From the NCBI GenBank assembly GCA_001994995.1, contig MDJM01000033.1:1-64000 (forward strand): DNA of 64,000 nucleotides. Reading direction: 5' to 3'. The DNA is from Candidatus Parepulonipiscium sp. PG-Nuni2H_MBin01. Its GTDB lineage: Bacteria; Bacillota; Clostridia; Lachnospirales; Cellulosilyticaceae. Shown here one piece after another: positions 15,714-53,421 of this stretch. The translations under genes were made by a program, and so were the position numbers. The number at the start of each line of letters is the position of its first letter. Position 1 is the first letter of the stretch. The notes under the pieces were generated by a model. It did no database searches, was not told the DNA's origin, and worked only from the letters and a program-made list of their open reading frames with translations.

Positions 15714-15725
15714 ATGCTGCAACAT

Positions 15726-16172
15726 GTTAGCTTGTACTGCTGTATGTCAGCTTGTACTATGCCATATTGTTAGCTTGTACTATACAGTGTCAGCTTGTAC
15801 TATGCTAAATTGTTAGCTTGTACTATACAGTGTCAGCTTGTACTAGGCTATATTGTTAGCTTGTACTGCTGTGTGTCAGCTTGTACCATGCTAAATTGTT
15901 AGCTTGTACTGCTGCGTGTTAGCTTGTACCATGCTAAATTGTTAGCTTGTACTATACAGTGTCAGCTTGTACTATGCTAAATTGTTAGCTTGTACTATAC
16001 AGTATCAGCTTGTACCAGGCTATATTGTTAGCTTGTACTATACAGTGTCAGCTTGTACTAGGCTAAATTGTTAGCTTGTACTGCTGCGTGTCAGCTTGTA
16101 CCAGGCTATATTGTTAGCTCGTACTATACAGTGTCAGCTTGTACCAGGCTATATTCTCAGCTCGTACTATAC
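15726..16172. repeat. 43-bp tandem repeat array (about 10 units, 21 half-units)
   Basis: The array repeats two related half-units of 21-22 bp. Each is built on TTAGCTTGTACT or TCAGCTTGTACT, alternating with the spacers ATACAGTG or GCTGYGTG and ATGCTAAATTG or AGGCTATATTG. Full units are 43 bp and nearly identical. The array fills the gap between hpf and the kinase gene. There is no open reading frame and no varied spacer of CRISPR type. The half-unit period is close to two turns of the helix, which would place repeated binding sites on one face. Confidence 0.93.
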
Positions 16173-18188: not shown

Positions 18189-18216
18189 AAAAAAGCACCT
18201 TGCAATAGGTGCTTTA
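18189..18216. terminator. Convergent terminator
   Basis: AGCACCT (18194-18200) and AGGTGCT (18207-18213) form a stem with A and T tracts on both sides. It lies between deoD and the minus-strand gene ending at 18214. Confidence 0.85.
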
Positions 18217-18819
18217 ATTATTTAACAATTCCACAAGGCTTGGATTAAAAGCCGAACTAGATGTACTAGAAAAACGCATATAATGCATCATTGGGTCATT
18301 CTCATCGGTGCCTTTAGCAAAATCATTAAATATTTTACCTTCAGCAAGATACTTCATAGCAGTAGAATAATCACCCCCGTTGATACTATCCCTAATAGTG
18401 TCTCCCACTGTCTTAAGCATATCCACAGATTTTGAAAAATCTATCTCGCCATTCTCATCCATAAAATGTGACTCTAACAATGTGCCAATATCTTCACTAA
18501 TATAACCCGCGCTACTTAACACTGCAAGCTCTGCAAACGTTGCATTATGCCCATCAATCTCATCAAGATTAATCTGCTCCACTACTTCATTTCCATCGCT
18601 ATCCAAATAACTAACTTCATATAAATTTCCGTCTGTCGCACTAACACTAACATATTCTTCAAAATTATATGAAGACGTAAGCGAACTAGTTGCCGATGAA
18701 GACGAATTTAGCTGTGACAACAAATCAAATGACTGAGTCGAACTAGCATTTGTGCCAGAAAAATTAAAATTACTTAGTGAATTAACACCGTAATAGCTAT
18801 TAAACATACTAATATTCAC
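18214..18819 (-). CDS. Unknown Ser/Asn-rich protein
   Basis: I do not recognise this 201-residue protein. Residues 1-50 are rich in Ser, Asn and Phe and look disordered. About 50-90 is a short beta segment (YVSVSATDGNLYEVSYLDSDG), and about 90-190 is acidic and helical (LLESHFMDENGEIDFSKSVDM). There is no signal peptide or membrane segment. AAAGGATG precedes the ATG. It is a single gene downstream of the tubulin-like gene terminator, and a link to that system is not shown. Confidence 0.75.
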   Translation of the reverse strand: MNISMFNSYYGVNSLSNFNFSGTNASSTQSFDLLSQLNSSSSATSSLTSSYNFEEYVSVSATDGNLYEVSYLDSDGNEVVEQINLDEIDGHNATFAELAVLSSAGYISEDIGTLLESHFMDENGEIDFSKSVDMLKTVGDTIRDSINGGDYSTAMKYLAEGKIFNDFAKGTDENDPMMHYMRFSSTSSSAFNPSLVELLNN

Positions 18820-18943: not shown

Positions 18944-18977
18944 AAAAAAAAGGTACTGACTAAATAGTCAATACCTT
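18944..18977 (-). terminator. Rho-independent terminator of the tubulin-like gene
   Basis: On the minus strand AAGGTATTGACT and AGTCAGTACCTT form a stem with one mismatch, followed by eight T. Confidence 0.88.
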
Positions 18978-18984
18978 AACCAAA

Positions 18985-20235
18985 TTAAGCAAATGGATTA
19001 GACTGCTTCATCTTACCATTCTTGTTCTTATTTTTAGTATTTGTAGGAGGCGCTGTTGATAAAGTATCCACAAATGGATTAGGCTTCTCAAAAAACTTCT
19101 TATTCCCAGTCTCAGTACGACGCGATAGGCCAAATGGGTCTTTTATAGCCGACACATCTACACTCTTACTCTCCTTAGTAAAATCTTTTGTGAACTTAGG
19201 AGCGCTACTAATATCAAAAGCATCTCTATCAAAATCCACAATCCATTGCTCCAATCGCTCTGAAACGCTCTTAGGAATCTCTTTACCAAAAACATAAACT
19301 AAAGAATCATTAGATGTATTAAGACCAATCTTTATATCTGCACTAGGGCGACCAAACTCTTGATACAACTGAGCAGTCTGGAAGTTATCCTTATGAGCAT
19401 AAGCAATCGAAATAGCCATCTCATCACAAACTTTAGGCGCATCATCATCAGCCTGCGCCATACAACTTAGCGGCTCTATCTTATACGGCTCCTGTGCGTC
19501 ACCAGATTGACTAGAAGATAGCTTTGCCACCTGCACAACTCCTTGAGTATGAATCAACGCACGGTTTTCCGTATCGTCACACGGCTTAAGACCATCAAAA
19601 CTGCTTCTATCTGAAGTAACCCCAACATGCTCAGTCAAACTAAGAACGCTGTCAATACAATCAGCAATCATCTCATTAACCTCTTCTTTAGACTCCTCCT
19701 TCTCATTATCTACTATGTAGACATTGCACAAATAAGGCATCATCTCTTCAATCTCCGCCAAACAAGCGTATGCATTAGCACTTGGCTTTCTGTTCTCTTG
19801 TCTAGTCGGTAAAACTATAATCAAAGAAACTTTCTTACCTTGTTGCGCCATATACTTAGCCAAAGCAGGAGTCATACCAGAACCTGTACCACCACCCAAA
19901 CTAAATACAAAGAAATAATTTTTAAAAGAAGGATAACGAGAATTAAAAATACTTATAATCTCAGCCGCATTATCAGCAACAAGGTCCTTCGCTAACTCTC
20001 TATCCTTATTACAACCTCCAGCCTCAGGAATAGCATATAACTGACTATCAGAAACTCTCTCAAGCTCCACAAAATCGCCAAAAGCAGTATTAATATAAAA
20101 AGCTCTATATCCGCGACGCTGAATTCTATTAGTAATCGCTCCTCCGCACTTACCAACACCAACAAACAAAGTCTCACTAGCCATTAAATGTCCTGCTCTT
20201 GCCCATTCTTCTCTTCTTAATTTATAATTAGTCAT
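18985..20235 (-). CDS. tubZ: Tubulin/FtsZ-family GTPase, TubZ-like
   Basis: The product (416 residues from the ATG at 20235) is a divergent tubulin-fold GTPase. GGGAGA lies eight bases before this ATG; upstream in-frame ATGs lack such a site. The nucleotide-binding signature SLGGGTGSGM falls at about 112-121, an N-terminal GVGKCGGAITNRI at about 26-38, and a possible T7-loop NEMIAD at about 187-192. Family members polymerise with GTP. It lacks the FtsZ C-terminal peptide and ends in a basic, Asn-rich tail (about 390-416). The wHTH gene and an AT-rich repeat region lie upstream in the order tubC-tubR-tubZ, as in type III partition systems of Bacillus plasmids and clostridial phages. The TubZ name is inference from fold and context. 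Confidence 0.8.
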   Translation of the reverse strand: MTNYKLRREEWARAGHLMASETLFVGVGKCGGAITNRIQRRGYRAFYINTAFGDFVELERVSDSQLYAIPEAGGCNKDRELAKDLVADNAAEIISIFNSRYPSFKNYFFVFSLGGGTGSGMTPALAKYMAQQGKKVSLIIVLPTRQENRKPSANAYACLAEIEEMMPYLCNVYIVDNEKEESKEEVNEMIADCIDSVLSLTEHVGVTSDRSSFDGLKPCDDTENRALIHTQGVVQVAKLSSSQSGDAQEPYKIEPLSCMAQADDDAPKVCDEMAISIAYAHKDNFQTAQLYQEFGRPSADIKIGLNTSNDSLVYVFGKEIPKSVSERLEQWIVDFDRDAFDISSAPKFTKDFTKESKSVDVSAIKDPFGLSRRTETGNKKFFEKPNPFVDTLSTAPPTNTKNKNKNGKMKQSNPFA

Positions 20236-20339
20236 AATCTTCATCTCCCTATCAATGTCCAATACCCTTAAGTCAAAATCACATCTTATCATAACTGTTT
20301 ATAATTATTTATAATACACTTAACAATTGTTTTATATAT

Positions 20340-20735
20340 CTACTGACCATTATAATGAGCTTGCACCTCATCATAAATATCTGCCCAGCTAGGCACTTCT
20401 TTACCCACATCGCGAGTTTTCATATAAGCCAGCACTAATCTTTCCTTCTCCTCAATACCCATCGTAGTGTAATCAACAAATTGCCCTACACCTTTCATAG
20501 TCACATAATACCTTTTTGTTCTTCCACTACGTAAACCCTCTTTAAGAAGCTCATTAGCGCTAAGCTGCTGAACTATTCTATAAATGCTAGGCTTGGATAA
20601 ATTTAAAGCATCTGCAAGCGAATCAAAAATTTCATTAGCAGAAATAGTTTTAGTAGGCACTATATAAGCCTCATCTATTAATAACCTTAAAATAGCCATG
20701 CCTTTCTCACCCAGAATAAAATTTGTTCCCCCCAT
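20340..20735 (-). CDS. tubR: Winged-helix DNA-binding protein, TubR candidate
   Basis: This 131-residue protein has a winged helix-turn-helix: helices at about 30-70 (SANEIFDSLADALNLSKPSI), a recognition helix near SIYRIVQQLSANELL, and a wing at RSGRTKRYYVTMKG. The region around 95-130 is an acidic C-terminal helix set. In TubZRC systems the small wHTH protein TubR binds the centromere and links it to TubZ filaments, and also represses its own operon. The gene lies 104 bp before the tubulin-like gene on the same strand and directly downstream of a repeat-rich region. It could instead be an ordinary PadR- or MarR-like regulator. AAAGGA precedes the ATG. Confidence 0.72.
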   Translation of the reverse strand: MGGTNFILGEKGMAILRLLIDEAYIVPTKTISANEIFDSLADALNLSKPSIYRIVQQLSANELLKEGLRSGRTKRYYVTMKGVGQFVDYTTMGIEEKERLVLAYMKTRDVGKEVPSWADIYDEVQAHYNGQ

Positions 20736-20776
20736 AGTAATTATCCTTTCTTAATAAATTTATTCCGTCTCTTACT

Positions 20777-20806
20777 ATAGTACCACTTGTCTTATCAACA
20801 TGTCAA
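20777..20806 (-). promoter_or_regulatory. Promoter of the tubR-tubZ pair
   Basis: On the minus strand TTGACA (plus 20801-20806), 18 bp, then TACTAT (plus 20777-20782), about 45 bp before the wHTH start codon. The repeat region begins about 75 bp upstream of it. Confidence 0.6.
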
Positions 20807-20879
20807 TGATTTTATTACAAATAATTAATAAATATTATTTTTTCTTATTATATATCATATAAATCAGCAATATCTAACC

Positions 20880-21200
20880 TATTATTGCCGACTATTGTTT
20901 ATTATAATCATTTATTGCTTATTATCGTATATTATTATTTTCCCCAGATAAATTAAAATAATATGCACTAAAAACCAATATTTATCAATAATAAGTAATA
21001 ATATGCAATAATCAACGATAATTCATGATAGATATATTATTGCTATAATAAATATATATCCTCCAGTTTAACCAAATATATTATTAAATCTTATTGCTAA
21101 TTATTTAATTTTATTAGTTTATATTGCTAATTATTGGACGTTATTATGTTTTATTACTTATTATCCTTTGCTTTTAATAATAAACGATAATTTGCAATAA
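20880..21200. repeat. AT-rich iteron-like region, candidate tubC centromere
   Basis: The heptamer TTATTGC occurs perfectly at 20882, 20912, 21037 and 21091, and as GCAATAA at 21005 and 21194. Extended forms include TTATTGCTTATTATCG (20912), TTATTGCTAATTATT (21091), ATATTGCTAATTATTG (21121) and TTATTACTTATTATCC (21151), with CGATAATTTGCAATAA (21185) on the other strand. The 640-bp gap to proS contains no gene. Repeats next to a wHTH and tubulin-like gene pair suggest a centromere or operator array, but AT richness alone can give chance matches. Confidence 0.55.
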
Positions 21201-21352
21201 ACAATTATAAATTATAATAACCGTTAAGAATAAATGCAAATCAATAATATAAACTTATATTTGGTAAGATTATTAGATTATACCCACTAGACTAACATTT
21301 TAATCATTAATTTTTATATTTTTTAAAATCTATAAATCACGGTATATACACC

Positions 21353-21391
21353 AAAAATAACAAGAACTTATAGAAATAAATCCTTGCTATT
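21353..21391 (-). terminator. Rho-independent terminator of the proS operon
   Basis: On the minus strand AATAGCAAG pairs with CTTGTTATT (one G-U pair), followed by a T tract, just after the proS stop codon. Confidence 0.65.
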
Positions 21392-21397
21392 AATATT

Positions 21398-23104
21398 TTA
21401 ACTATATTGTTTTTTTAAATCGCTTATAAGTTGTGCAACAGTATTTTGTATGCTATCTATATCCACTAATTTCTTGATAGATTTGTCTCTAGTAACTATC
21501 TCGATTAAATTATTCTTTAAATTTTTCTCACCTATGATAATTCTTACAGGAACACCTAGCAAATCTGCATCTGCAAATTGTACACCTGCTCCAACATCCC
21601 TATCATCAAGTATTACCTCATAATCTGTATTTAATGCATTATATATATCAAAACCAATTTTATTAATATCCATTTTTTTACTTTTCAGTACACAAATATG
21701 GACTTCCCATGGAGCTATACTAATAGGCCAAATTGGGCCATAATCATCATGGCGCGCTTCTAAAACAGATGCTATTAACCTGCCAACACCAATACCATAG
21801 CATCCCATAATAGGAGTTTGTGCTTTACCATTCTCATCTATATATGTCATATTCATAGATTTAGTATACTTATCCCCTAGTTGAAAAATATTCCCTACTT
21901 CTATTCCGCGCTTAAACTGTAACGTACCTTCCCCACATAAACAATTTTGCCCTTCGTTTACTTTCGTTAAATCATAATACTCAGATATATTTAAATCTTC
22001 AACATTAAGCCCTGTATAGTGATAATCCACCTCATTAGCTCCGCATACAAACCATTTTACATCTTTTACAGATTTATCAAACAATACTTCTACATCAGCT
22101 AAATTATGTGGCCCTATAAAACCAAACACTAGTTCGCTATCATCATAATCTACAAACGGTGTAATTTCCGCCTTAACTACCTTTTGTACCTTAGCTTCAT
22201 TTACTTGTAAATCTCCTCTTAAAAATATTACTAGAGGCTTTGTCTTGCCATCTACCTTAAATACTGCTGCCTTTAACAAATGCTCTTCACCAATATTAAA
22301 AAACTTTGCCACATCGGCAATAGAAGTAATATTAGGCGTGTGAACCTTAGTTAACGGCTCTGGCAATTTATCACTTACGCTAAGCAGCGACGTTGCCACT
22401 TCCATATTCGATTGGTAGTCACATGAATTACAAACTACAATCGTATCCTCGCCCACATCAGTTAATAACATAAACTCATGGGCAACACTTCCCCCCATCA
22501 TTCCGCTATCTGATTGCACACATACAACTTCTGGTACACCGCACCTTCTATAAATATTTACATATGCATCTAAACATCTATTATAATACTGTTCTAAATC
22601 GTGCTCACAAGTATGAAATGAATATGCATCTTTCATTGTAAACTCTCTAACCCTAATAAGCCCACCTCTAGAGCGCGCTTCATCCCTAAACTTAGTCTGA
22701 ATATGATACACCATAAACGGATATTGCGTATAAGACTTAGCCTCGGTCCTTGCCAAATGCACACAAGCCTCTTCATGAGTCATAGCCAATAACATATCCC
22801 GGCCAGTACGGTCCTTCATTCTTAACAATTCACTACCCACCGCATCAAATCTGCCCGACTCTTGCCACAACTCTCCAGGTAATGCCACAGGAAATAAAAC
22901 CTCTTGGCCATCAATACTGTTCATTTCAGCTCTAATAATCTGTTCAATTTTACTTTTTATTTTAACTGCTGGCAGCAACATAGTAAAAATACCATTAGAC
23001 ACCTGTCTTATATACCCGCCTCTTAATAAAAATATGTGACTATCAAAACTAGCCTCTGCTGGCTTTTCTTTAAATCTCTCACCTAACAATTTACTCATTA
23101 ACAT
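21398..23104 (-). CDS. proS: Prolyl-tRNA synthetase, bacterial type with editing domain
   Basis: ProRS charges tRNA-Pro with proline. The 568 residues fit the bacterial form. Class II motifs are visible: motif 2 in TKFRDEARSRGGLIRVREF, and motif 3 in GIGVGRLIASVLEARHDD. Between about 225 and 410 lies the inserted editing domain (VFKVDGKTKPLVIFLRGDLQVNEAK), which removes alanine mischarged on tRNA-Pro. The anticodon-binding domain is at the C-terminus. GAGG sits eight bases before the ATG. It is the last gene after parB and the DUF4446 gene, with a 99-bp gap. Confidence 0.97.
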   Translation of the reverse strand: MLMSKLLGERFKEKPAEASFDSHIFLLRGGYIRQVSNGIFTMLLPAVKIKSKIEQIIRAEMNSIDGQEVLFPVALPGELWQESGRFDAVGSELLRMKDRTGRDMLLAMTHEEACVHLARTEAKSYTQYPFMVYHIQTKFRDEARSRGGLIRVREFTMKDAYSFHTCEHDLEQYYNRCLDAYVNIYRRCGVPEVVCVQSDSGMMGGSVAHEFMLLTDVGEDTIVVCNSCDYQSNMEVATSLLSVSDKLPEPLTKVHTPNITSIADVAKFFNIGEEHLLKAAVFKVDGKTKPLVIFLRGDLQVNEAKVQKVVKAEITPFVDYDDSELVFGFIGPHNLADVEVLFDKSVKDVKWFVCGANEVDYHYTGLNVEDLNISEYYDLTKVNEGQNCLCGEGTLQFKRGIEVGNIFQLGDKYTKSMNMTYIDENGKAQTPIMGCYGIGVGRLIASVLEARHDDYGPIWPISIAPWEVHICVLKSKKMDINKIGFDIYNALNTDYEVILDDRDVGAGVQFADADLLGVPVRIIIGEKNLKNNLIEIVTRDKSIKKLVDIDSIQNTVAQLISDLKKQYS

Positions 23105-23713: not shown

Positions 23714-24514
23714 TTACACCTTAATAATCTCTATTATTCGTTCTAACTCCTCATCCGAATAATATTCTATCTCAATTTTACCTCTTTTTTTACCTGATAC
23801 TATATTCACCTTTGTTCCTAACATAGACTGTAACGACTCCTGAGCCTCCATATAAAAAGGACTTAACTTCGCTGATGATGCCTCCACCTTACGAGAACTA
23901 TTCCTATCCAAAAGTTTAACCCGTCTCTCTATATCCCTGACCGTCATATTTTGTAATATCACCTCATCAACTAGCGAATTTTGTAAATTTTTATCTTTTA
24001 CTGAAAGTATTGCCCTTGCATGGCCAAAACTAATCATATTTTGGAAAACTTTTTCTTGTGCGTAATCTGTTAACTGATTTAACCTAACTATATTAGCAAC
24101 ATATGACCTTGATTTACCTATTTTAACTGCAATTTCATCGCTAGTTAACCCAAACTGCTCAATCAAAGTTTGATACGCCTTTGCAAGCTCCATAACATTT
24201 AAATCTGTGCGATGAATATTTTCAATTAATGCGATTTCATATTCAGACTGTTCAGTTAGCTCCTTAATAATAATAGGGATTTCTTTTAACGCTGCCATCC
24301 TAGCCGCCCTAAATCTTCGTTCACCTGCTACAATTTGGAACCTTTCCCCTTTCTGCGTTACTAAAATAGGCTGTATTATCCCTTTCTCTTTAATAGACAT
24401 CATAAGTTCTCTTAACTCTTCATCTAAAAACTTTTTTCTAGGCTGATTAATATTAGGCTCAATTAAATCTATAGATACTACTTTAGCATTTAATTTTTCA
24501 TATGGATTTTGCAT
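23714..24514 (-). CDS. parB: Chromosome partitioning protein ParB (Spo0J)
   Basis: ParB is a CTP-dependent clamp that loads at parS sites near the origin and recruits SMC. The 266 residues show the N-terminal CTPase domain with NQPRKKF, IQPILVTQ and VAGERRFRAAR (about 20-75), the central HTH (LTSDEIAVKIGKSRSYVANIVRL, about 125-150), and a short C-terminal dimerisation domain. The ATG follows GAAAGGA. No parA/soj gene lies beside it; the divergent neighbour is an unknown membrane protein. A matching parS site is seen at 53406-53421. Confidence 0.96.
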   Translation of the reverse strand: MQNPYEKLNAKVVSIDLIEPNINQPRKKFLDEELRELMMSIKEKGIIQPILVTQKGERFQIVAGERRFRAARMAALKEIPIIIKELTEQSEYEIALIENIHRTDLNVMELAKAYQTLIEQFGLTSDEIAVKIGKSRSYVANIVRLNQLTDYAQEKVFQNMISFGHARAILSVKDKNLQNSLVDEVILQNMTVRDIERRVKLLDRNSSRKVEASSAKLSPFYMEAQESLQSMLGTKVNIVSGKKRGKIEIEYYSDEELERIIEIIKV

Positions 24515-26825: not shown

Positions 26826-27069
26826 TGTGGATAAGTCCTGTGGATAACTTTGAGCTATATTGGCAAATTTAAAAACTGTGGATAAATCTGTGGATAAGTC
26901 TAATTTTCACATAAAACTTTATTTGTTTCACAACTGTTTCACGACTTATCCACAGGCTGGGGATAAGTCGTATTTTTTTGTGTAATACCAAAAAGTTATC
27001 CACAGATTTTAGTCTAAAATCGATGAGTTATCCACAGATTTTAGGCCTACAAATCACGACTTATCCACA
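26826..27069. other. oriC: oriC, DnaA-box cluster upstream of dnaA
   Basis: Perfect TGTGGATAA boxes start at 26826, 26839, 26877 and 26889, and TTATCCACA boxes at 26946, 26996, 27028 and 27061, with a TGGGGATAA variant at 26958. The boxes point in opposite directions in the two halves. It lies directly before dnaA, as the incA/B part of bipartite Firmicute origins does. Confidence 0.95.
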
Positions 27070-27142
27070 GCCTATTTCTACCTTATACATGTGATTTTAA
27101 AATTCAATGTAACAATTTATAGTGAAATCAAGGAGGTTTTTC

Positions 27143-28474
27143 ATGGCGGTAGTTAACTATACCGAACAGTGGGACAATATACTAAAATTAATTGAACCTG
27201 AAACATCATCAGTTAGCTTTAACACTTGGTTTAAGCAAACTAAACTAATTAATATTGACAATAATATTTTAATCATCAGTGTAAACGATAATCTAGCACA
27301 GAGCATACTAAACACCAGATATTTAGATCTTATAAAAAATTCTGTAGTACATGCACTAAACAAAGAATATGAGCTAGAATTTATAGTAGAGGCACACACT
27401 ACAAATTTAAAAATATCTAAACACAAAAAAGATGATGACCCTCTCAACATTCAAAGTAACCTTAACCCTCGGTATACATTCGATTCATTTGTAGTAGGTC
27501 ATGCGAATAGAATGGCTCATGCAGCAGCATTAGCAGTAGCAGAAACTCCGTCAAAGGCATATAACCCCTTATTTCTATACGGAGGAGTAGGTTTAGGTAA
27601 AACACATCTAATGCAATCTGTAGCCCATTATATCATAGCCCAAAACACTAAATTAAAAGTGCTCTATACATCAGCTGAGAAGTTTACTAACGAACTTATT
27701 AACTCCATTAGAGATGATAAAAATGAAGAGTTTAGGAACAAATACAGAAATATAGATGTACTAATAATCGATGATATACAATTTATTGCTGGCAAAGAGC
27801 GCACCCAAGAGGAATTCTTTCATACATTCAACACACTACACGAAGCCAATAAACAAATAATAATATCAAGTGATAGACCACCAAAAGATATAGCAACACT
27901 AGAAGCTAGGCTATGCTCAAGATTTGAATGGGGCCTAATAGCAGACATACAAAAGCCCGACCTAGAAACTAGAATTGCTATACTACGAAAAAAAATTCTA
28001 ATAGAAAACCTTTGCATTCCTTCGGAAGTTCTTAACCTTATTGCACAGACCGTAATTTCTAACATAAGAGAGCTTGAAGGGGCTTTAAATAGAATACTAG
28101 CCTACTCTTCTCTAGCAAACAAACCTATTAGTGAAGAATTAGCCAAAGAAGCTCTTAAAGATATAATTTCACAAGATGAACATAAAGCTATTACTCCAGA
28201 ATATATTCAAGAGCTAGTAGCGGGATATTTTAATATAAAAGTTACAGACTTATTATCTAATAAACGTACCAAAAATATTACCTATCCACGACAAATAGGA
28301 ATGTATCTATGCCGTAAATTTACTGAACTCTCTTGGCCAAAAATAGGAGAAAAATTTGGAGGACGTGATCATACCACTGTAATTCATGGACACGATAAAA
28401 TTTCCAATGATTTAATAACTGACACAAAATTAATACAAATAGTCCAAGACCTAGAAATAAAACTGCAGACTTAA
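27143..28474 (+). CDS. dnaA: Chromosomal replication initiator DnaA
   Basis: DnaA binds DnaA boxes, melts the origin and loads the helicase. The ATG at 27143, six bases after AAGGAGG, gives 443 residues; an upstream in-frame start at 27122 overlaps the ribosome-binding site. Domain I is about 1-80, a short linker follows, and the AAA+ domain runs from about 105 with Walker [11 protein letters not shown] and Walker [10 protein letters not shown]. Domain IV carries the DnaA signature [15 protein letters not shown] near the C-terminus. It lies between two DnaA-box clusters. Confidence 0.99.
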
Positions 28475-28541
28475 TAAATTTTCCAAATTATTGGAGAATT
28501 GTTGGATTACTAGACAACAATATACATCAGATAAAATAATT

Positions 28542-28725
28542 TTATCCCCACAGGCAAAAAAGTTATCCACAATTCATCCACAGGCAAAGCCGAGTTATCC
28601 ACAGATTTATCCACAGGCAAAGTCGTTGACTATCAAGGGCTAGATATAGTTATCCACAGTATCCACAGCCCCTACTACTACTACTATAAACTTTATTATA
28701 ATATTTTATTAAGCAAATCGACTAA
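28542..28725. other. oriC: oriC, DnaA boxes, DnaA-trio and AT-rich unwinding region
   Basis: Between dnaA and dnaN, TTATCCACA boxes start at 28563, 28595, 28607 and 28650, with variants at 28542 (TTATCCCCA), 28574 and 28659. After the last box and a short CCCC cluster comes CTACTACTACTACTATA (28672-28688), whose complement repeats 3'-GAT-5', the DnaA-trio element. It runs into an AT-rich stretch (28689-28720) suited to strand opening. Confidence 0.93.
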
Positions 28726-37271: not shown

Positions 37272-40200
37272 ATGAGTAAAAATATTAGACGCAAAATTGC
37301 GCAGATGGTGGCTTGCGGAGTCTTTATTCAAGCAACCACTCAACAGTTAGTTTATACTAATGTAAATATTGCATCTACTGAAGGTGCAGTAAATTCAAAT
37401 TTAGCGAGTACAACACGTTCCGCTGTATTAGTCAGTAATGTCACAACAGCTCAAGCTATAGGAGCCACTACGCTATCAACTAGCACTATAGATTTAGCTA
37501 GCTTAGAAAATGGAGTTTATACGGTCAATGTTGATATTTTTCAACAATATGCTGATACTGACTCTATGTGTGCTGGTTTTGTAAAAAAAGATGACGTTAA
37601 GTTTATTATGAAAGATGGCATAGCTACTGTTACCATGCATATAGCCAAAAATCCTCAGTTAGGGGAGTATATTTATGAGGATACTATTGGAGATACTGAA
37701 TATCGTGAGTCAGATGGAGAGACATGGGTTTTAGTAGATAGAACGTTAACACAAGAAATTATTCAATATGGTGAACCTGAAGATGCTTGGGAATTTGAAG
37801 TAATATCAGAAAGCTCTGAGATATATGTTAGAGCTGTAATAGGAGCTATGGGTAATACTAATCCTGCTTTTAGAGTTATTTTCAATGAAATTACGTCTTT
37901 TACACCAGAAGCAGATATATTAGATGATGGTTCATATTCTGCTAATATAAGCATCTTACAAACCAGTTCTGATAGCGTATTTTCAAGATATAGTGGAAGA
38001 GTAACGCCTACAGAAGTTATTTTTAGCGTGGTTGATGGAGAAGCTAATTTAAATTTAAATATAGACTCCACAACATTTTATGATGGCACTACTCAATATA
38101 CAGTTAGAGAAATTGCTTATTTAGATGAAACAACTGGAGATTACATAAGTGTGGATACAACTAGTGGCGATGACGTATTACAATTTACAGTACCTCTAAT
38201 AGGTGAAGAAATAACTATAGAGGCAACAGGAATTAGAAAAGCAATGTTTGGTTCAACTGTTGCTAATACTGATTATTTCCGAATAGTGCTAAGTGATATG
38301 GAGCCTTTTGATACAGCGGTTATTGAAGATGTTGAGATTAGTATTGATGCTACAACATTTTTTATAGGCGAAAGTGTATCAATAGTAGGAGCGGTTTACC
38401 CTGAGGAGACTACATTAGATGCTACGTTAACATGGTCTAGTTCTAATGAAAACGTTGCATCTATTAATGATGGAGTAGTTAAAGGAGATAGCCCAGGTTC
38501 TACTACTATTACCGCAACTGCAGTTAATGATGTTTTCGACTTAGTTGAAATAACTATAGCTAATGTAGCTGAGGGTACTTCTTATGCTGATGCAGAAAAT
38601 GGTGAATATTTAATTAATACAGTAGTTTGGCGCGATGATTCAGATGCAGATTCTTCTATGAATACAGAAATGAAAGTTGAAGATGTAAGTATAGAAATCA
38701 TAGATGGAACAGGTTTTATAACTATGGAGTTTAGACAACATGCCAAAGGGTTTGCGGATTCTTTAATTGCTATTCGTGCTCAAGATGAAAATGGTGATTG
38801 GATTGACTTGCAAAGGACAGAGTCTATGGCTGTAGTTAATGGAACCGAAGAGGAATGTTGGAAAGTTACAGTGCCTACTAATTCGCATATTGTACCTATT
38901 CAGTTAGGAGTTTATGCTATGAGTGGTATTTATAACCAATCGCATGGCATTAGAGTTGTAGTTACTGACCAAGATGCTAGCACACAAGATGTTACTATTG
39001 ATGATGTTATTATAACGTATCCTTCTACAGAAACTTCAGCTGACGGAGCTATTAAAGTTGATGCGTCGGGAGCTGATAATATGATTTATAGTATTAATAA
39101 TGGAGAAACTTGGTCTGACTCAAATACTTTTACAGACTTAGTGTTAGATAGCTATACAGTTAGAATTGCTGATAGGTTAAATATAACTAACTATACAACA
39201 CAAACTGTAACGCTAGATTTACAAGAGCCTGAGGAAGTTAGTTTTAGTACAGACGGTATGTATAAAGCGGATGCCGTAGTGTGGCAAGAATATTCGGATA
39301 CTGACTCTATGATGGCTACAGCAGTTAAAACTACTGATATTGATGTAGAAGTAGAAAGCAATATTGCGAATGTAACTTTGCATATAGCTAAAGATGCTTT
39401 AGGTTATACAGATTCTATTAACAAGTTAAGCTATCAAAATAATGATGGACAGTGGGTAGAGTGTGAAATGGTTACTACAACAGCTGTAATTAATGAAACT
39501 GAGCAGTCAGCTTGGGAAATTGTTGTGCCTACTAGCACTGAGACTATGCTGTTACAAGTAGATATTGATGTTGAAAATGCTTATTCAGCTACTCATAATG
39601 TTAGAGTTATTTTAACACAATTAGATTATATTTCGGTATTACCGGATTTAGAATATTCAGTAAATTTAAATGTATGGAAAGAGTATGAAGATGAAGACTC
39701 TATGGCAGCGGCATGGGTAGGGAAAACTAATGTTCCTGTTAGTCGCGTGGATGGTAGTACTACGTTAACTACTTATATCGAGAAGAATCCTTCTTTATCA
39801 GATGTTACTTATTACGATGCAATAGGAGATGTATATTATAAAGATGCTAATGGGGACTGGGTTGAAGTAGAAAAAGTTGCAGGGCAGATTGGGGATATGG
39901 AAGTATGGTATTTAAATATTCCAGTTCATAATGTTTACGAAGATATATACTTATTGACAGATTTAGACCTAGGAACATTCCAACATCCTAATACGGCATT
40001 TAGATTAGTTTATACAGATGAATATGAGGAAGATATTGAAGAAGAAGATGATGTAAATGATAAAGACGATGATAACGATGACGACGACGATGTAAATGAT
40101 AAAGATGATGATAACGATGATGAAGATGAAGATGAGCTTACAGTTGATATAGATTATATAGTGCTTGAAATAGGGGCTTCACAAACGATAACTGCTAACA

Positions 40201-42275
40201 GCAATAATGTAACATGGTCTAGTGCAGACGAGAATATAGCAACTGTAACTGCTGAAGGTGAAATTACAGCAGTAGGCGCAGGTACCACTACAATAACAGT
40301 TACAGCTGATAATGGTAATATAGCTACAGTAACCGTAACAGTTACGCAACCAATTGAAGGCGCTGGTGATTTAGCAGATTTAACAAATGGAGTTTATACG
40401 ACTAATATTTCTGTACTCCAAGAGTATACTGATGCTGACTCAATGTGCGCAAGCTTTATTAAAAAAGATAACGTTAAGTTTTCTATGGAAGATGGAATAG
40501 CAACTGTTACAATGCATATAGCTAAAGACCCTAATTTAGGAGGCAATGTATTTGAGGATACTATTGGTGATATTGAATACCGTGATGCAGATGAGCTGAC
40601 ATGGGTGTTAGTTGAAAAAACTTTAACGCAAGAAGTAATTCAATATGATGAACCTGAAGATGCGTGGGAATTTGAAGTATTAACACAAGACTCTGAGATA
40701 TATGTTAGAGCAACTATTGGGGCTATGGGTAATACTAATCCAGCATTTAGAGTTATTATGGGTGATATTACTCCTTTTGAGGATAAAGACGACGAAGATA
40801 ACGACGATGAAGATGATAACGCTGATGACGATAGCGATAATGACAACGATGAAGATAGCAACGATGAAGATAGCAACGATGAAGATAACAACGATGAAGA
40901 TAACGACGATGAAGATAATAATGCTGATGAAGATAACAACGATGACGATGATAACACTGATGACGATAGCAACGATGAAGATAACGACGATGAAGACGAT
41001 AGCGATGATGATAACAACGATGACGATAACGACGAAGATGATAACGCTGAAGACGATAGCGATGATGAAGATGATAACATAGATGATGATAAAGATGCTG
41101 GAGATAACAATAATGATGGCAATGTAAATGAAGATGATAGCGATGATAATAGCGACGACGATAACGGCGAAGACGATAATAGCGATGACGATAGCGACGA
41201 CAGTAACAGCGAAGATAATAGCAACGACGACGGTAACACCGACGACAATAACAATGCTGATACTATAGCTCCAGTATTTTCTTATACAGGTGCATCAAGC
41301 TACACTTTGCTGGCTGGAACCACATTTAGCATACCTGAAGTAACTGCAACTGATAATGTAGACGGTGAAATAACTGTTACTACAAGCATTACTAAAGATG
41401 GTGTAACTGTAACTGCTGTGGATACATCAACTGTAGGAACTTACGTAATTACTTACTTAGCACAAGATAGCGCAAGTAATACAGCTACTATGTCTATAAC
41501 TGTAAGGATTATTTACGATAGTTTCGACGTATTTAACTTTAGTATAAGTTACCCAAGTATAAGTTTCAGCAGCACTTCTACTACCTCTACTTCTTCTACT
41601 AATACAACTACTACAACTACTTCTACAGCTGAACAAAATCTAGATAATATAGAAATCACAGAATTATTAGAAACTGTTTTAGAGGCTAATGAAGAGGCAG
41701 ACGTAGAAAGCGTTACTCAAACTATAGCTGAAGTATTTACCGACATTAGCGAATCAGCATGGTACTACGCAGATGTATCAGCAGTATACAATAGCGGCCT
41801 TATGGCAGGAGTAACTGATACTGAATGGGAACCTGCTACGACTGTGACAAGAGCGCAGCTAGCAACGATTTTACACAGAATGGATGATAATTTAGTTATT
41901 AACAACGCTCAAACATTTAGTGACATTGCAAATGATGCATGGTATTCAACATCAATAAACTGGGCGGCTTCTGTAGGTATTTATGGTGGCTATGATGATG
42001 GTACATTTAGGCCTAGCGAAAATATTACTCGTGAGCAGATAGCAGTTATTATATATAATTATGCAGGATACAAAAATTATGACACAATGCAATCTAGTTC
42101 ACTAGCTGATTTTAATGATGTTAATGATATAGCATCTTGGTCATCTCATGCAGTGGCGTGGGCTGTGGGCAATGGTATAATTGGTGGTCGTGATGATGGT
42201 ACATTAGACCCTAAAGGAACAGCAACGCGAGCGGAAATTGCTGTTATTATAAATCGCTTATTAAATTTAAACTAA
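37272..42275 (+). CDS. Giant SLH-anchored protein with six NEAT domains
   Basis: The 1667-residue surface protein is built for heme capture. After a signal-like N-terminus come NEAT-type domains at about 78-210, 218-347, 441-570, 660-785, 789-916 and 1034-1170. Each has a (D/E)(D/S)SM or similar turn (DADSMCASF) and most end in a block such as GAMGNTNPAFRVI. Big2 domains lie at about 352-435 and 955-1027, Asp/Asn-rich linkers at about 917-955 and 1170-1333, an HYR/DUF5011-like Ig domain at about 1333-1415, a Ser/Thr linker, and three SLH repeats at about 1490-1667 for wall anchoring. NEAT domains bind heme in the Isd systems. Canonical YxxxY ligands are not evident. AGGGAGG precedes the ATG. 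Confidence 0.88.
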   Translation: MSKNIRRKIAQMVACGVFIQATTQQLVYTNVNIASTEGAVNSNLASTTRSAVLVSNVTTAQAIGATTLSTSTIDLASLENGVYTVNVDIFQQYADTDSMCAGFVKKDDVKFIMKDGIATVTMHIAKNPQLGEYIYEDTIGDTEYRESDGETWVLVDRTLTQEIIQYGEPEDAWEFEVISESSEIYVRAVIGAMGNTNPAFRVIFNEITSFTPEADILDDGSYSANISILQTSSDSVFSRYSGRVTPTEVIFSVVDGEANLNLNIDSTTFYDGTTQYTVREIAYLDETTGDYISVDTTSGDDVLQFTVPLIGEEITIEATGIRKAMFGSTVANTDYFRIVLSDMEPFDTAVIEDVEISIDATTFFIGESVSIVGAVYPEETTLDATLTWSSSNENVASINDGVVKGDSPGSTTITATAVNDVFDLVEITIANVAEGTSYADAENGEYLINTVVWRDDSDADSSMNTEMKVEDVSIEIIDGTGFITMEFRQHAKGFADSLIAIRAQDENGDWIDLQRTESMAVVNGTEEECWKVTVPTNSHIVPIQLGVYAMSGIYNQSHGIRVVVTDQDASTQDVTIDDVIITYPSTETSADGAIKVDASGADNMIYSINNGETWSDSNTFTDLVLDSYTVRIADRLNITNYTTQTVTLDLQEPEEVSFSTDGMYKADAVVWQEYSDTDSMMATAVKTTDIDVEVESNIANVTLHIAKDALGYTDSINKLSYQNNDGQWVECEMVTTTAVINETEQSAWEIVVPTSTETMLLQVDIDVENAYSATHNVRVILTQLDYISVLPDLEYSVNLNVWKEYEDEDSMAAAWVGKTNVPVSRVDGSTTLTTYIEKNPSLSDVTYYDAIGDVYYKDANGDWVEVEKVAGQIGDMEVWYLNIPVHNVYEDIYLLTDLDLGTFQHPNTAFRLVYTDEYEEDIEEEDDVNDKDDDNDDDDDVNDKDDDNDDEDEDELTVDIDYIVLEIGASQTITANSNNVTWSSADENIATVTAEGEITAVGAGTTTITVTADNGNIATVTVTVTQPIEGAGDLADLTNGVYTTNISVLQEYTDADSMCASFIKKDNVKFSMEDGIATVTMHIAKDPNLGGNVFEDTIGDIEYRDADELTWVLVEKTLTQEVIQYDEPEDAWEFEVLTQDSEIYVRATIGAMGNTNPAFRVIMGDITPFEDKDDEDNDDEDDNADDDSDNDNDEDSNDEDSNDEDNNDEDNDDEDNNADEDNNDDDDNTDDDSNDEDNDDEDDSDDDNNDDDNDEDDNAEDDSDDEDDNIDDDKDAGDNNNDGNVNEDDSDDNSDDDNGEDDNSDDDSDDSNSEDNSNDDGNTDDNNNADTIAPVFSYTGASSYTLLAGTTFSIPEVTATDNVDGEITVTTSITKDGVTVTAVDTSTVGTYVITYLAQDSASNTATMSITVRIIYDSFDVFNFSISYPSISFSSTSTTSTSSTNTTTTTTSTAEQNLDNIEITELLETVLEANEEADVESVTQTIAEVFTDISESAWYYADVSAVYNSGLMAGVTDTEWEPATTVTRAQLATILHRMDDNLVINNAQTFSDIANDAWYSTSINWAASVGIYGGYDDGTFRPSENITREQIAVIIYNYAGYKNYDTMQSSSLADFNDVNDIASWSSHAVAWAVGNGIIGGRDDGTLDPKGTATRAEIAVIINRLLNLN

Positions 42276-42283
42276 TAAAATGG

Positions 42284-42304
42284 TGCCCCTAGTTTTTAGG
42301 GGCA
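42284..42304 (+). other. Intercistronic RNA hairpin
   Basis: TGCCCCTA and TAGGGGCA form a perfect 8-bp stem. The sequence after it is GTATATTGG, not a T tract, so it is more likely an mRNA-stabilising or processing hairpin than a terminator. Confidence 0.6.
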
Positions 42305-42321
42305 GTATATTGGAGGCTATT

Positions 42322-43227
42322 ATGCATAAAAACTTTAAAAGACTAATTACATTAGCGCTAGCAGCAATGCTAACGACATTACCAGCAGTGTCATATGCAA
42401 CACAACCAACACAAATATCGGAATTGATTCCAGTGGATTTAGCTACGTTAGAAGATGGTAGATATGAGGCAACATTAAATGTGTGCCAAGAACATGTAGA
42501 TGTGGATTCGATGTGCGCAGGATTTATTCTAAAAGACAATGTAATTGTTGAAGTAGAAGATGGTCAAGCGACTGTAACTTTATATATCGCAAGAAATCCT
42601 CAGATGAATGGATTTACTTTTGAAGATACTATTGGAGAGACTGACTATAAAGATGAGCAAGGCAACTGGATTAATGTTGAAAAAACGTTAGTGCAAAAAG
42701 CTATTGTATCTGATGAGATAGATGATGCGTGGCAAATCCAGATTAAAACAAGCGAGCCAGTAGTATATGTAAGAGCTGTGATTGAAGCTATGGGTAGTAC
42801 TAATCCAGCATTTAGAGTTATTTTATGTGATGTAAGACCATCTGTGTTTTGTGATATAGATGAAGCTTTTGAGCTGATAGAAGTGGCGCATGGGGTGAAG
42901 GCGACAAATGAAGTAGTAGCTGAAGTTTTATATAAACTAGCAGGCTTTAGTGATGAGGATAGTTTGGTAGCTGAAGATGTAACTAGAGAACAATTATGCA
43001 TAGCGTTATATAACTTAGCGACTCAATTACAAATTGATACTAACGTTGATGGGACTTTGGATAGTTATATAGATAAAGCAGCAGTATCAGCAGATGCTAT
43101 TGATGCTGTAACGTGGGCTATGTATAATGGATTATTTGGAGAAGTAACTACTATTAATCCAAAGTCAACTTTTACAACGCCAGTGTTTAAGGCAGTTATT
43201 TCTAATTTTATTGATTATGCGAACTAA
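42322..43227 (+). CDS. NEAT-domain protein with degenerate SLH region
   Basis: The ATG at 42322 (after TTGGAGG) gives 301 residues with a signal peptide (about 1-26). One NEAT-type domain covers about 40-175 (DVDSMCAGFILKD, EAMGSTNPAFRVIL), very like domains 1 and 6 of the upstream giant. The remaining 120 residues resemble two worn SLH repeats (DVTREQLCIALYNL, AVTWAMYNGLFGEV) and may still contact the cell wall. Position and domain suggest a shuttle in heme uptake. Confidence 0.85.
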   Translation: MHKNFKRLITLALAAMLTTLPAVSYATQPTQISELIPVDLATLEDGRYEATLNVCQEHVDVDSMCAGFILKDNVIVEVEDGQATVTLYIARNPQMNGFTFEDTIGETDYKDEQGNWINVEKTLVQKAIVSDEIDDAWQIQIKTSEPVVYVRAVIEAMGSTNPAFRVILCDVRPSVFCDIDEAFELIEVAHGVKATNEVVAEVLYKLAGFSDEDSLVAEDVTREQLCIALYNLATQLQIDTNVDGTLDSYIDKAAVSADAIDAVTWAMYNGLFGEVTTINPKSTFTTPVFKAVISNFIDYAN

Positions 43228-43242
43228 TAGGAGGATTTAAGA

Positions 43243-46200
43243 ATGAGTAAAAGTTTAAGAAAGAAAATTGCTTTAGCATGTGCAGCGATAATACCAGCTA
43301 CATCTATTTCATATGCGAATGTATCAACAAATGAAAGCTTAGTTTCAGCAACAATAACAACTACTACAAGTGCCGCTATAGAAATTGGAAAAGATACGGA
43401 TACTGATAGCGATAGTAATCACGATATTGAAGTGGATACCGATGGCGATAGTAATCACGATATTGAAATAGATAATACCGATGGCGATAGTAATCACGAT
43501 ATTGACGCGGATAATACCGATGGCGATAGTAATCACGATATTGAAGCGGATAATACTGATACCGATATTAATCAAGCTATTGAAGAAGCGAATAATATTA
43601 GTGAGAAAACTAACACACGTATAAGTTTTAATTCTGACGCTAATACATTATTAGGCTTAGCAGATGGGATATATACATCAACTATTGAGGTCTATAATCA
43701 ATACGCTGATGCAGACTCTATGTGTAAAGGATTTTTACCTTCAGAAGTACAGTTTATTATGATGGATGGCGTGGCAACTACAACATTATATTTAGCTAAA
43801 AACCCTGAATTAGGTGGATATACTTATAACGATACTATAGGTGATGTTGAGTATAGGGATGATAATGAAGAATGGATTTTGGTAGAGAAAACTCAAACTG
43901 AAGCGATTATTCAAGGTGATGAAGTAGAAGAAGCTTGGGAGTTTGAGGTTATTAGTACAGATAGTGAAATATATGTTAGAGCTGTAATAGGAGCTATGGG
44001 AGGTACTAATCCAGCGTTTAGAGTTATTTTAAAGGAGCCTATATTTGTTAGTGAATTAGAATTAGACAGCGAACTAGACAGCGAATTAGATGAAGAACTA
44101 GACGACGAATTAGACGGTGAATTAGATAATGAAGTAGATAATGAAGTAGATGATGAAGTAGATGATGAATTAGACAGCGAACTAGATGACGAAGTAGACG
44201 AAGAATTAGATAATGAAGTAGATGATGAATTAGACAGCGAACTAGATGACGAAGTAGACGGCGAATTAGATAATGAAGTAGATGACGAAGTAGACAGCGA
44301 AGTAGATGACGAAGTAGACGGCGAATTAGATAATGAAGTAGATGACGAAGTAGACGGCGAATTAGACGGCGAACTAGATGACGAAGTAGATGGCGAAGTA
44401 GACGACGAACTAGATGGCGAAGTAGACGGCGAAGTAGACGACGAACTAGACGGCGAACTTGACGGTGATACAGACGACGAAACAGATTCAGATGATGAGG
44501 ATGGAAGAGTAGAAATAACCCGACTAACACTAAATAAATCCAACGCTACATTAGAAGTGGGTAAAACTTATAAACTATCTGCAGACGTTTATCCAGCTAA
44601 CACTACTATGAATCCCACTATAACATGGTCTAGCAGCGATGATAATATTGCTAGCGTTGACTCAAAGGGTACAGTTACTGCTGTTTCAGAAGGCACAGCT
44701 ACTATAACGGCAAGTTCGCAAAGCGGCATTACGGCTTCAGCTACAATTAATGTTACTAGCGCGGATACAACAGATTTAGTTGACGGCAACTATAGCGCGC
44801 ATATTAACGTTTGGAAAGAATATGTTGATGAAGATTCAATGGCAGTTGCATTTTTTAAGACAGAGGATTTAAACTTACAAGTTAGCAATGGAAAGCTATA
44901 TTTAACTATAGTGGTTATGAACGAAGGTGAATTAGGTGGTTATTACTATGAGCCTGATATTATTACAAAACTTGAGCAGCAGCTTAATGACGGCTCCTAT
45001 ACTACGTTAGGTTTAAATTACCAAACTACTGCTGACGGTGTAGAGTATATTACTACAACTGTAGAATTTGATAGTATTGATGATATAGCTTATGTTAAAA
45101 CTACAATTGCCCCTATGAATAACATACCTCAAACTTTAAGGATTTTAATAGATGAGGCTAGTATACAACAAGGAACTTCATCTAACGTACCAGATGTTGA
45201 AGCGGTGTCTAGATATATTTCTAGCTACACATTAGAAAACGGAGCTATTTCTTTAATTATGAATACATTCGATGATACGTTAACAAAAGACGATTTCAAA
45301 GCAACCATTTCGCTTAATGGCGATGCAACAACTACTTTAGAGCTTGAAGATTTTACAATGGACGCTACATTTATAACATTTACATATGAAGAAATTGAAG
45401 CAACTGATGAAGAACAAGAACTTACTGTAACTATGCAAGTTGATGATAGAATTGCTATTTCTCGTACTATTACTATAGACGCGGTTGATGATGAAATTAT
45501 TGTTGATAAAGAACTATTTAGTTTAAAAGAAGGACGTATTTCGTATATTGAAGGCTATGGAGACAATACTTTTAGGCCTAGTAATACTATTACGAGAACA
45601 GAAGCTCTTACTATGTTTGGTAGACTAATAGATGTGCCAACGCAAACTTATACTGCTGTGGATATATCTGTGCTAAATGCTTTTGTAGATGAAGATTCGA
45701 TGGCAGCACAGTTTTTCCATAAAGAACGAGTTAGAGTAGAATATAATGAAGATGAACGATATACTATTACGATTAACGTAGATAACAATGGTATGGGATT
45801 TGAAGATATTTTAGTTTCAATGGAACACAAAGTAGATAACGACTATATTGAGCTAAATTTAAATAAAAGTTCTGATAGGTCAACTGCAACTATAGTATTT
45901 GATGTGGATAACTTAGAGGATGAAGTAATACTAAGGGTTGGTGTAGAACCAATGGGAGATATGCGACCTGAGTTACGTATTGTATTTGATACGTTGGAAG
46001 AATTTATAGAAACTGAAGCTGAGGCTAAACTGCGAGTATTTGAAACGCTTAAGCTTACAGGTAGCGAAACTATTAACCGTGCTGACTTTGCAGAAATGCT
46101 AGTTAAAATTGGCCAGCTAGAGTTAGATGAAGATATAGAGTTAAAAAGTAAATTTTTAGATGTACTTAACACTGACACTTATATTATTATAGCTACTGAG

Positions 46201-46389
46201 CTAGGGCTAGTTAGGGGCTACGGTGATGGTACTTTTATCCCTGAAAATAAAGTTACCCGTGCAGAGGCAGTTTGCATGATTAATCGTTTAATTGAAGACT
46301 CAACAGATATATCAGATTTAGAGTTACCTTTTTTAGACGTAGCACGTACTCACTGGGCATTTGAGGAAATTGTTAGAGCAACAAATTAA
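43243..46389 (+). CDS. Large NEAT/SLH surface protein with acidic repeats
   Basis: The 1048-residue protein has a signal peptide (about 1-26) and near-identical acidic repeats of about 16 residues (about 52-107; DGDSNHDIEADNT). NEAT 1 is about 140-265, a long Glu/Leu/Asp/Val repeat tract (ELDDEVDGELDNEVD) about 271-423, a Big2 domain about 425-506, NEAT 2 about 511-641 and a beta domain about 650-750. One SLH repeat lies at about 760-800 (EGYGDNTFRPSNTITRTEAL), then NEAT 3 at about 801-920 (DEDSMAAQFF, VEPMGDMRPELRIVF), then further SLH sequence to the end. A NEAT domain therefore sits between SLH repeats. GGAGG precedes the ATG, 15 bp after the previous gene. Confidence 0.87.
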   Translation: MSKSLRKKIALACAAIIPATSISYANVSTNESLVSATITTTTSAAIEIGKDTDTDSDSNHDIEVDTDGDSNHDIEIDNTDGDSNHDIDADNTDGDSNHDIEADNTDTDINQAIEEANNISEKTNTRISFNSDANTLLGLADGIYTSTIEVYNQYADADSMCKGFLPSEVQFIMMDGVATTTLYLAKNPELGGYTYNDTIGDVEYRDDNEEWILVEKTQTEAIIQGDEVEEAWEFEVISTDSEIYVRAVIGAMGGTNPAFRVILKEPIFVSELELDSELDSELDEELDDELDGELDNEVDNEVDDEVDDELDSELDDEVDEELDNEVDDELDSELDDEVDGELDNEVDDEVDSEVDDEVDGELDNEVDDEVDGELDGELDDEVDGEVDDELDGEVDGEVDDELDGELDGDTDDETDSDDEDGRVEITRLTLNKSNATLEVGKTYKLSADVYPANTTMNPTITWSSSDDNIASVDSKGTVTAVSEGTATITASSQSGITASATINVTSADTTDLVDGNYSAHINVWKEYVDEDSMAVAFFKTEDLNLQVSNGKLYLTIVVMNEGELGGYYYEPDIITKLEQQLNDGSYTTLGLNYQTTADGVEYITTTVEFDSIDDIAYVKTTIAPMNNIPQTLRILIDEASIQQGTSSNVPDVEAVSRYISSYTLENGAISLIMNTFDDTLTKDDFKATISLNGDATTTLELEDFTMDATFITFTYEEIEATDEEQELTVTMQVDDRIAISRTITIDAVDDEIIVDKELFSLKEGRISYIEGYGDNTFRPSNTITRTEALTMFGRLIDVPTQTYTAVDISVLNAFVDEDSMAAQFFHKERVRVEYNEDERYTITINVDNNGMGFEDILVSMEHKVDNDYIELNLNKSSDRSTATIVFDVDNLEDEVILRVGVEPMGDMRPELRIVFDTLEEFIETEAEAKLRVFETLKLTGSETINRADFAEMLVKIGQLELDEDIELKSKFLDVLNTDTYIIIATELGLVRGYGDGTFIPENKVTRAEAVCMINRLIEDSTDISDLELPFLDVARTHWAFEEIVRATN

Positions 46390-53405: not shown

Positions 53406-53421
53406 TGTTTCACGTGGAACA
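53406..53421. other. parS: parS site
   Basis: TGTTTCACGTGGAACA reads as TGTTCCACGTGAAACA on the other strand, the standard Firmicute parS form. It is intergenic, just after the second ABC gene. ParB is encoded at 23.7 kb. It lies 25 kb right of dnaN, within the usual origin-proximal zone. Confidence 0.9.

Follow-up and report, generated by a model that had tools for sequence, protein, structure and literature searches.

A TubZRC-like partition module beside oriC in a Candidatus Parepulonipiscium genome with no detected ParA

Introduction

In bacteria, filaments of the tubulin superfamily are known to transport plasmids and phage DNA; in eukaryotes, chromosomes are moved by tubulin. To our knowledge, no bacterial chromosome has been reported as moved by a tubulin-superfamily filament. 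Type III partition systems include the TubZRC modules of the Bacillus plasmids pBtoxis, pBM400, and pBsph, which consist of the tubC centromere, the TubR DNA-binding protein, and the TubZ GTPase with its basic tail. Their repeat blocks lie upstream of tubR (PMC5016525). A TubZRC system is also carried by the Clostridium botulinum phage c-st. Some Clostridia have tubZ together with tubY on the chromosome without tubR; some of these keep Soj/Spo0J, on which they appear to depend for segregation (PMC7762940). The chromosomal counterpart is ParABS, which has an origin-proximal partition site, a Walker-type NTPase (ParA), and ParB. An N-terminal motif of ParB stimulates ParA.

The locus described here comes from Candidatus Parepulonipiscium sp. 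PG-Nuni2H_MBin01. Its family includes Cellulosilyticum and, probably, the giant polyploid Epulopiscium group; the ploidy and size of the species itself are undetermined. How Epulopiscium manages its many chromosome copies is poorly understood, and Epulopiscium type B has its origins at regular intervals along the cell periphery (PMC8245194). A literature search for papers that mention both Epulopiscium and TubZ returned general essays.

Results

A tubC-tubR-tubZ module lies beside oriC

The window analyzed is a 64,000-nucleotide stretch of contig MDJM01000033.1, and all positions refer to it. A complete tubC-tubR-tubZ module occupies positions 18950–21230 on the minus strand, in the order iteron region, promoter, winged helix-turn-helix (wHTH) gene, tubulin-like GTPase gene, and terminator. 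The promoter (20777–20806, minus strand) is of the sigma-70 type, TTGACA-18-TACTAT with a TG before the −10 element, and lies between the iteron arrays and tubR. The wHTH gene is directly upstream of tubZ in one operon, and an intrinsic terminator follows tubZ (18950–18977, minus strand), giving the tubRZ operon its own promoter and its own terminator.

The module is bounded by proS (21398–23104) and by a gene for a 201-residue protein (18214–18819) that had no family match. The nameable flanking genes are housekeeping genes, namely a deoD-type phosphorylase, a PfkB kinase, proS, and parB, with proS and a DUF4446 gene separating the module from parB. No prophage, phage, plasmid, or integrase gene adjoins the module. 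Twelve perfect DnaA boxes (TTATCCACA) flank dnaA (at 27122) in two groups, 26826–27069 and 28563–28658, and the cumulative GC skew reaches its minimum near 29 kb (about 28.8–29.2 kb). The boxes and the skew minimum together identify 26826–28658 as a bipartite oriC, which begins 5.6 kb from the iteron arrays. The codon usage and GC content of the module resemble those of the neighboring genes. This resemblance, together with open reading frames that are intact at about 28% identity to the nearest kin, argues for long residence under selection.

A sequence-only reading of the window had described a repeat region, promoter, wHTH gene, and GTPase gene on one strand, 6 kb from dnaA, beside parB, and not on an obvious plasmid or prophage. 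All of these elements are present and the placement held; the DnaA box nearest the module is at 26826, and parB is its neighbor with the two intervening genes noted above.

The tubC region consists of four arrays of 10-bp iterons

The gap between tubR and proS (20736–21397) is 662 bp long, 19% GC, and repeat-rich, with a sharp 10-bp periodicity. It contains 29 ten-base iterons (TTATTGNNNN) in four arrays that form two head-to-head pairs. Array A (21171–21230, 6 iterons) reads on the minus strand and abuts array B (21081–21170, 9 iterons) on the plus strand. A 59-bp spacer (21022–21080) separates this pair from array C (20942–21021, 8 iterons, minus strand), which abuts array D (20882–20941, 6 iterons, plus strand). 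A weak chain of 4 iterons at 20812–20851 adjoins the promoter. Pairs of TTAT at a spacing of exactly 10 bp occur 18 times compared to 1.4 expected (0 of 1000 dinucleotide shuffles reached this count), and there are none at 9 or 11 bp. The longest iteron chain is 9 compared to a shuffle maximum of 5, and across the whole 64 kb every chain of 6 or more falls within the tubC region. No second copy of tubC was found in the genome, and the DNA of the module is unique there.

The 10-bp unit was examined independently in mobile Clostridia loci. Chains of at least 5 iterons at this spacing are found upstream of tubR in 14 of 20 such loci, and in the same 20 loci spacings of 8, 9, and 11–13 bp give chains of at most 4. 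In five loci from Bacillus, Paenibacillus, Cetobacterium, and phage G, 10-bp chains were not clearly seen. The window and the mobile loci have the unit length in common but not its sequence, as would be expected if the sites co-evolve. The iterons upstream of tubR in L169–L190 fall into TCAGAG-like, TGAAAT-like, and AATAAA-like types, all with a 10-bp unit, and these types may represent a recognition code between TubR and iteron.

Another periodic region, at 15.7–16.2 kb, was considered as a second tubC and rejected. It is an intergenic tandem array (15725–16172) upstream of the PfkB kinase gene, in which a 43-bp unit is repeated 10.4 times; the unit is based on the word AGCTTGTAC, which recurs at spacings of 20 and 23 bp in alternation.

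The GTPase is TubZ-like

The GTPase gene (18985–20235, minus strand) encodes 416 residues. The open reading frame extends to 20292, but translation probably begins from the ATG at 20235, with AGGGAG 9 bp before it. The protein contains SLGGGTGSGM, as the sequence-only reading had stated, and keeps the GGGTGSG T4 loop and the conserved Asp/Glu of the T7 loop. Its Pfam matches are Tubulin (3e-12) and Tubulin_2 (3e-8). TubZ of phage c-st is its best sequence relative in the PDB (1e-17), and a profile of phage and mobile TubZs from which the window protein had been left out recovered it at 2.6e-42. Most of the GTPase core is predicted with a pLDDT above 90, and the best structural match of the model is again c-st TubZ (TM score 0.81 on the target). 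The regions outside the core are poorly modeled, with 135 residues below a pLDDT of 50. These include the last 73 residues, a flexible, disordered tail that is basic (15 Lys plus Arg versus 7 Asp plus Glu).

The relationship to other tubulin-like families was addressed by profile, structure, and phylogeny. The score against the FtsZ equivalog model is 22.4 bits versus a cut-off of 295.2. The C-terminal FtsA/SepF-binding peptide of FtsZ is absent, also as the earlier reading had it; the protein ends in KQSNPFA versus EIPAFLRKK in the genome's own FtsZ, which has the usual peptide and is encoded on a separate contig (C8). PhuZ is not the closest family, since phrog_17961 (5e-18) beats the PhuZ family phrog_4733 (9e-14) and PhuZ structures rank below c-st TubZ. 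In the tree the GTPase falls outside the FtsZ clade, but its branch is so long that grouping with FtsZ cannot be ruled out from the tree alone. The AU test does not reject such a join (p = 0.29), nor does it reject kinship with mobile TubZs. The assignment therefore rests on profiles, fold, and gene partners, which make it very likely that the GTPase is TubZ-like and not a housekeeping FtsZ.

The wHTH protein is TubR-like

The wHTH gene (20340–20735, minus strand) encodes 131 residues. General libraries gave only weak wHTH matches. A profile built from phage and mobile-locus TubRs found the protein at 2e-9 among the local open reading frames, and in a search of the whole genome it was the sole match (2.4e-8). 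The predicted structure was compared with TubR. The top-ranked Foldseek hit is a TubR (3m8e), though the E-values are weak, as is usual for wHTH folds of this size, and a structural aligner placed TubR of pBM400 (4asn) first with a Z-score of 13.6 versus 12.2 for the next entry. The protein is longer than phage TubRs (about 80–91 residues), having some 40 extra C-terminal residues and extra helices. There are no binding data, and its identity as a TubR-like protein, which profile and fold make very likely, is a homology assignment.

ParA was not found and ParB lacks its ParA-activating motif

The sequence-only reading missed the state of the ParAB genes. The window's parB (23714–24514, minus strand) has no parA upstream, and in relatives with an assembled locus parA lies directly before parB. 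A search of the genome, a 95.6%-complete bin, found no Soj/ParA; it returned only MinD, FlhG, a NifH-like protein, and one sub-threshold match. The genome thus has no complete chromosomal ParABS. A Soj-like ParA is present in 11 of the 13 better genomes of the family. One genome (G007, a single contig with neither ParA nor ParB) was dropped as a case of ParABS loss. It is uninformative because gyrA is also missing, and the origin region may be absent from the assembly.

ParB begins MQNPYEKLNAKVVSI and lacks the relatives' N-terminus GLGKGLxxLL, with its LGKGL ParA-activating motif; there is no in-frame upstream extension that could supply it. Ten other loci retain the motif and one more has an altered form of it. 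The closest relative of the window ParB, that of L074, has also lost it. L074 (G020:C68) is a small contig from another bin whose sequence is close to the window locus, with 88% identity in proS; it too has no parA, and it ends before the tub site. One parS-like site, with a single mismatch, is present at 53406–53421, and only two weaker ones occur elsewhere in the bin.

Comparison with known TubZ loci

The nearest kin are about 28% identical. A single-protein scan of genome contigs found no close TubZ, and no close viral or plasmid copy of the module was found. Mobile kin comprise 27 IMG/VR loci. The tubRZ copy of genome G008 is that of a predicted phage (L180, IMG/VR), and the copies of G009 and G063 lie among phage-like or conjugation-like genes, the latter near VirB4-like genes. 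G063 also has a second tubZ-like gene that is apparently interrupted by a stop (C17, 30129–30688). A search of 391 genomes of the class gave strong matches in just two others. One has TubR in a mobile-looking setting. The other, G336 (L251, 7180–9733), has a chromosomal TubZ with a divergent MerR-like gene adjoining and no TubR, and resembles the known TubZ-TubY type of some Clostridia (PMC7762940).

The window module shares its gene order and its TubZ and TubR families with c-st TubZRC and the mobile Clostridia loci (IMG/VR L169–L195, G008, G009, and G063), and the mobile relatives that were read have 10-bp iterons directly upstream of tubR, as it does. It differs from them in being chromosomal and at oriC, in arranging its 29 iterons as two head-to-head pairs of arrays where they have a single shorter one, in its iteron (TTATTGNNNN versus TCAGAG-like or TGAAAT-like), and in its longer TubR and TubZ. 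The Bacillus plasmid systems have the same three parts, upstream repeats, basic TubZ tail, and TubR fold, but they are plasmid-borne with different repeats. The TubZ-TubY systems share the chromosomal location of TubZ but lack the tubR found here, and no TubY-like gene was seen among the window open reading frames that were read, a search confined to the window. As in chromosomal ParABS, the putative partition site is origin-proximal and ParB is still present; unlike it, the window has no ParA, a ParB without the ParA-activating motif, and a tubulin-like NTPase.

Discussion

The homology of the genes, their order, the iterons, the place at oriC, and the absence of ParA and of the ParB motif are directly observed. 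The anatomy of the module is well supported: it is very likely a genuine TubZRC (type III) partition module, in a lineage that has lost ParA. The TubZRC-like interpretation of the sequence-only reading is accordingly supported; it named a housekeeping FtsZ or adjoining prophage genes as refuting it, and neither was found, with the reservation about the tree given above. DNA binding and function are inferred. The sequence-only reading's claim that a chromosomal tubulin-based system would be new held in part, as chromosomal TubZ without TubR is known in some Clostridia (PMC7762940). A full TubZRC at oriC with ParA lost is probably new.

On balance, we favor a model in which a mobile type III module, of a kind whose known relatives are carried by prophages, plasmids, and integrated elements, was domesticated beside oriC, where it acts on the origin region and possibly took over from ParA. 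TubR dimers would occupy the 29 phased iterons, and the segrosome formed there would also keep the tubRZ promoter repressed. TubZ filaments, driven by GTP, would attach to the TubR-tubC complex by their basic tail and so pull the origin region through the cell or space it there. ParB, without ParA and the ParA-activating peptide, would presumably be only a parS-bound clamp that loads SMC. TubR binding to tubC, autorepression, GTP-dependent treadmilling filaments that track TubR-tubC, tail contact, chromosome movement, replicon stabilization, and takeover from ParA are all inferences. We lean, by a modest margin, toward the view that the module serves to segregate or position the chromosome or its origin. 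That TubZRC functionally replaced ParA is more tentative, and we judge this inference slightly more apt to be wrong than right. The bolder reading, in which a domesticated TubZRC replaced the ParA motor at oriC and tubulin-like filaments move the chromosome via an origin-proximal centromere, likewise falls a little short of being the better bet. The loss of ParA could be unrelated to TubZ, as L074 also lacks parA on a contig that ends before the tub site. The full TubZRC at oriC, combined with the loss of ParA and of the ParA-contacting peptide of ParB, makes the locus a concrete, testable candidate for a bacterial chromosome moved by a tubulin-like filament.

Two unlikely alternatives accept the module as real. 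It could be the relic of an integrated plasmid, prophage, or ICE, with TubZRC kept by chance or as selfish baggage without a chromosomal role. The kin are indeed mobile, as the 27 IMG/VR loci, the phage copy in G008, and the VirB4-like neighbors in G063 show. However, the partition module stands alone with no integrase or phage gene adjoining, it retains intact open reading frames, promoter, terminator, and all 29 iterons while being about 28% identical to its kin, and its codon usage is neighbor-like. Alternatively, the loss of ParA and the presence of TubZRC are unconnected: chromosomes would be handled by ParB-SMC, transertion, and, if the cell is polyploid, near-random inheritance, and TubZRC would have another task, such as a non-segregation TubZ filament. 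In favor of this view, the peripheral origins of Epulopiscium type B are regularly spaced and its need for chromosome order is probably relaxed (PMC8245194), L074 is also without parA, and some Clostridia keep Soj/Spo0J beside chromosomal TubZ (PMC7762940). Against it, a position beside oriC is what would be expected of a chromosomal partition site, and the iteron centromere has that position; the other chromosomal TubZs lack TubR.

The remaining alternatives deny that the module is what or where it seems. A plasmid or phage tubRZ contig could have been falsely joined into the oriC contig. The bin does contain foreign sequence: contig C87 (L285, L253, and L252) holds a second complete oriC region with dnaA, dnaN, recF, gyrB, gyrA, and noc that is lower in GC and clearly diverged from that of the window, and is likely a contaminating relative. 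No independent assembly spans both junctions. Nevertheless, an artifact is very unlikely, because the module lies deep within a 75.9-kb contig (C33) with unbroken GC skew across it, its codon usage is neighbor-like, its DNA is unique, no close viral or plasmid copy exists among the sequences searched, and most sampled contigs of the bin resemble C33 in tetranucleotides. The idea of a divergent FtsZ paralogue controlled by an ordinary wHTH regulator draws only on the AU test (p = 0.29). It is all but excluded by the FtsZ model score (22 bits against a cut-off of 295), the missing C-terminal peptide, the TubR partner, the iterons, the c-st fold match, and the true FtsZ elsewhere in the genome. 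The domestication model remains our preferred reading. It rests on one draft genome bin; no second species of the genus was compared, and conservation at this site has not been shown.

Other features of the contig

The relatives and C87 carry noc between rsmG and argS, whereas the contig that contains the window has no noc at that place (L067, 8214–10645). Large S-layer-type proteins with long poly-Asp/Glu repeat stretches are clustered at 37272–46389, and a 467-residue protein encoded at 57429–58832 is composed of many repeats of the type AIEFIDNPSEEIKLAAVKQ.
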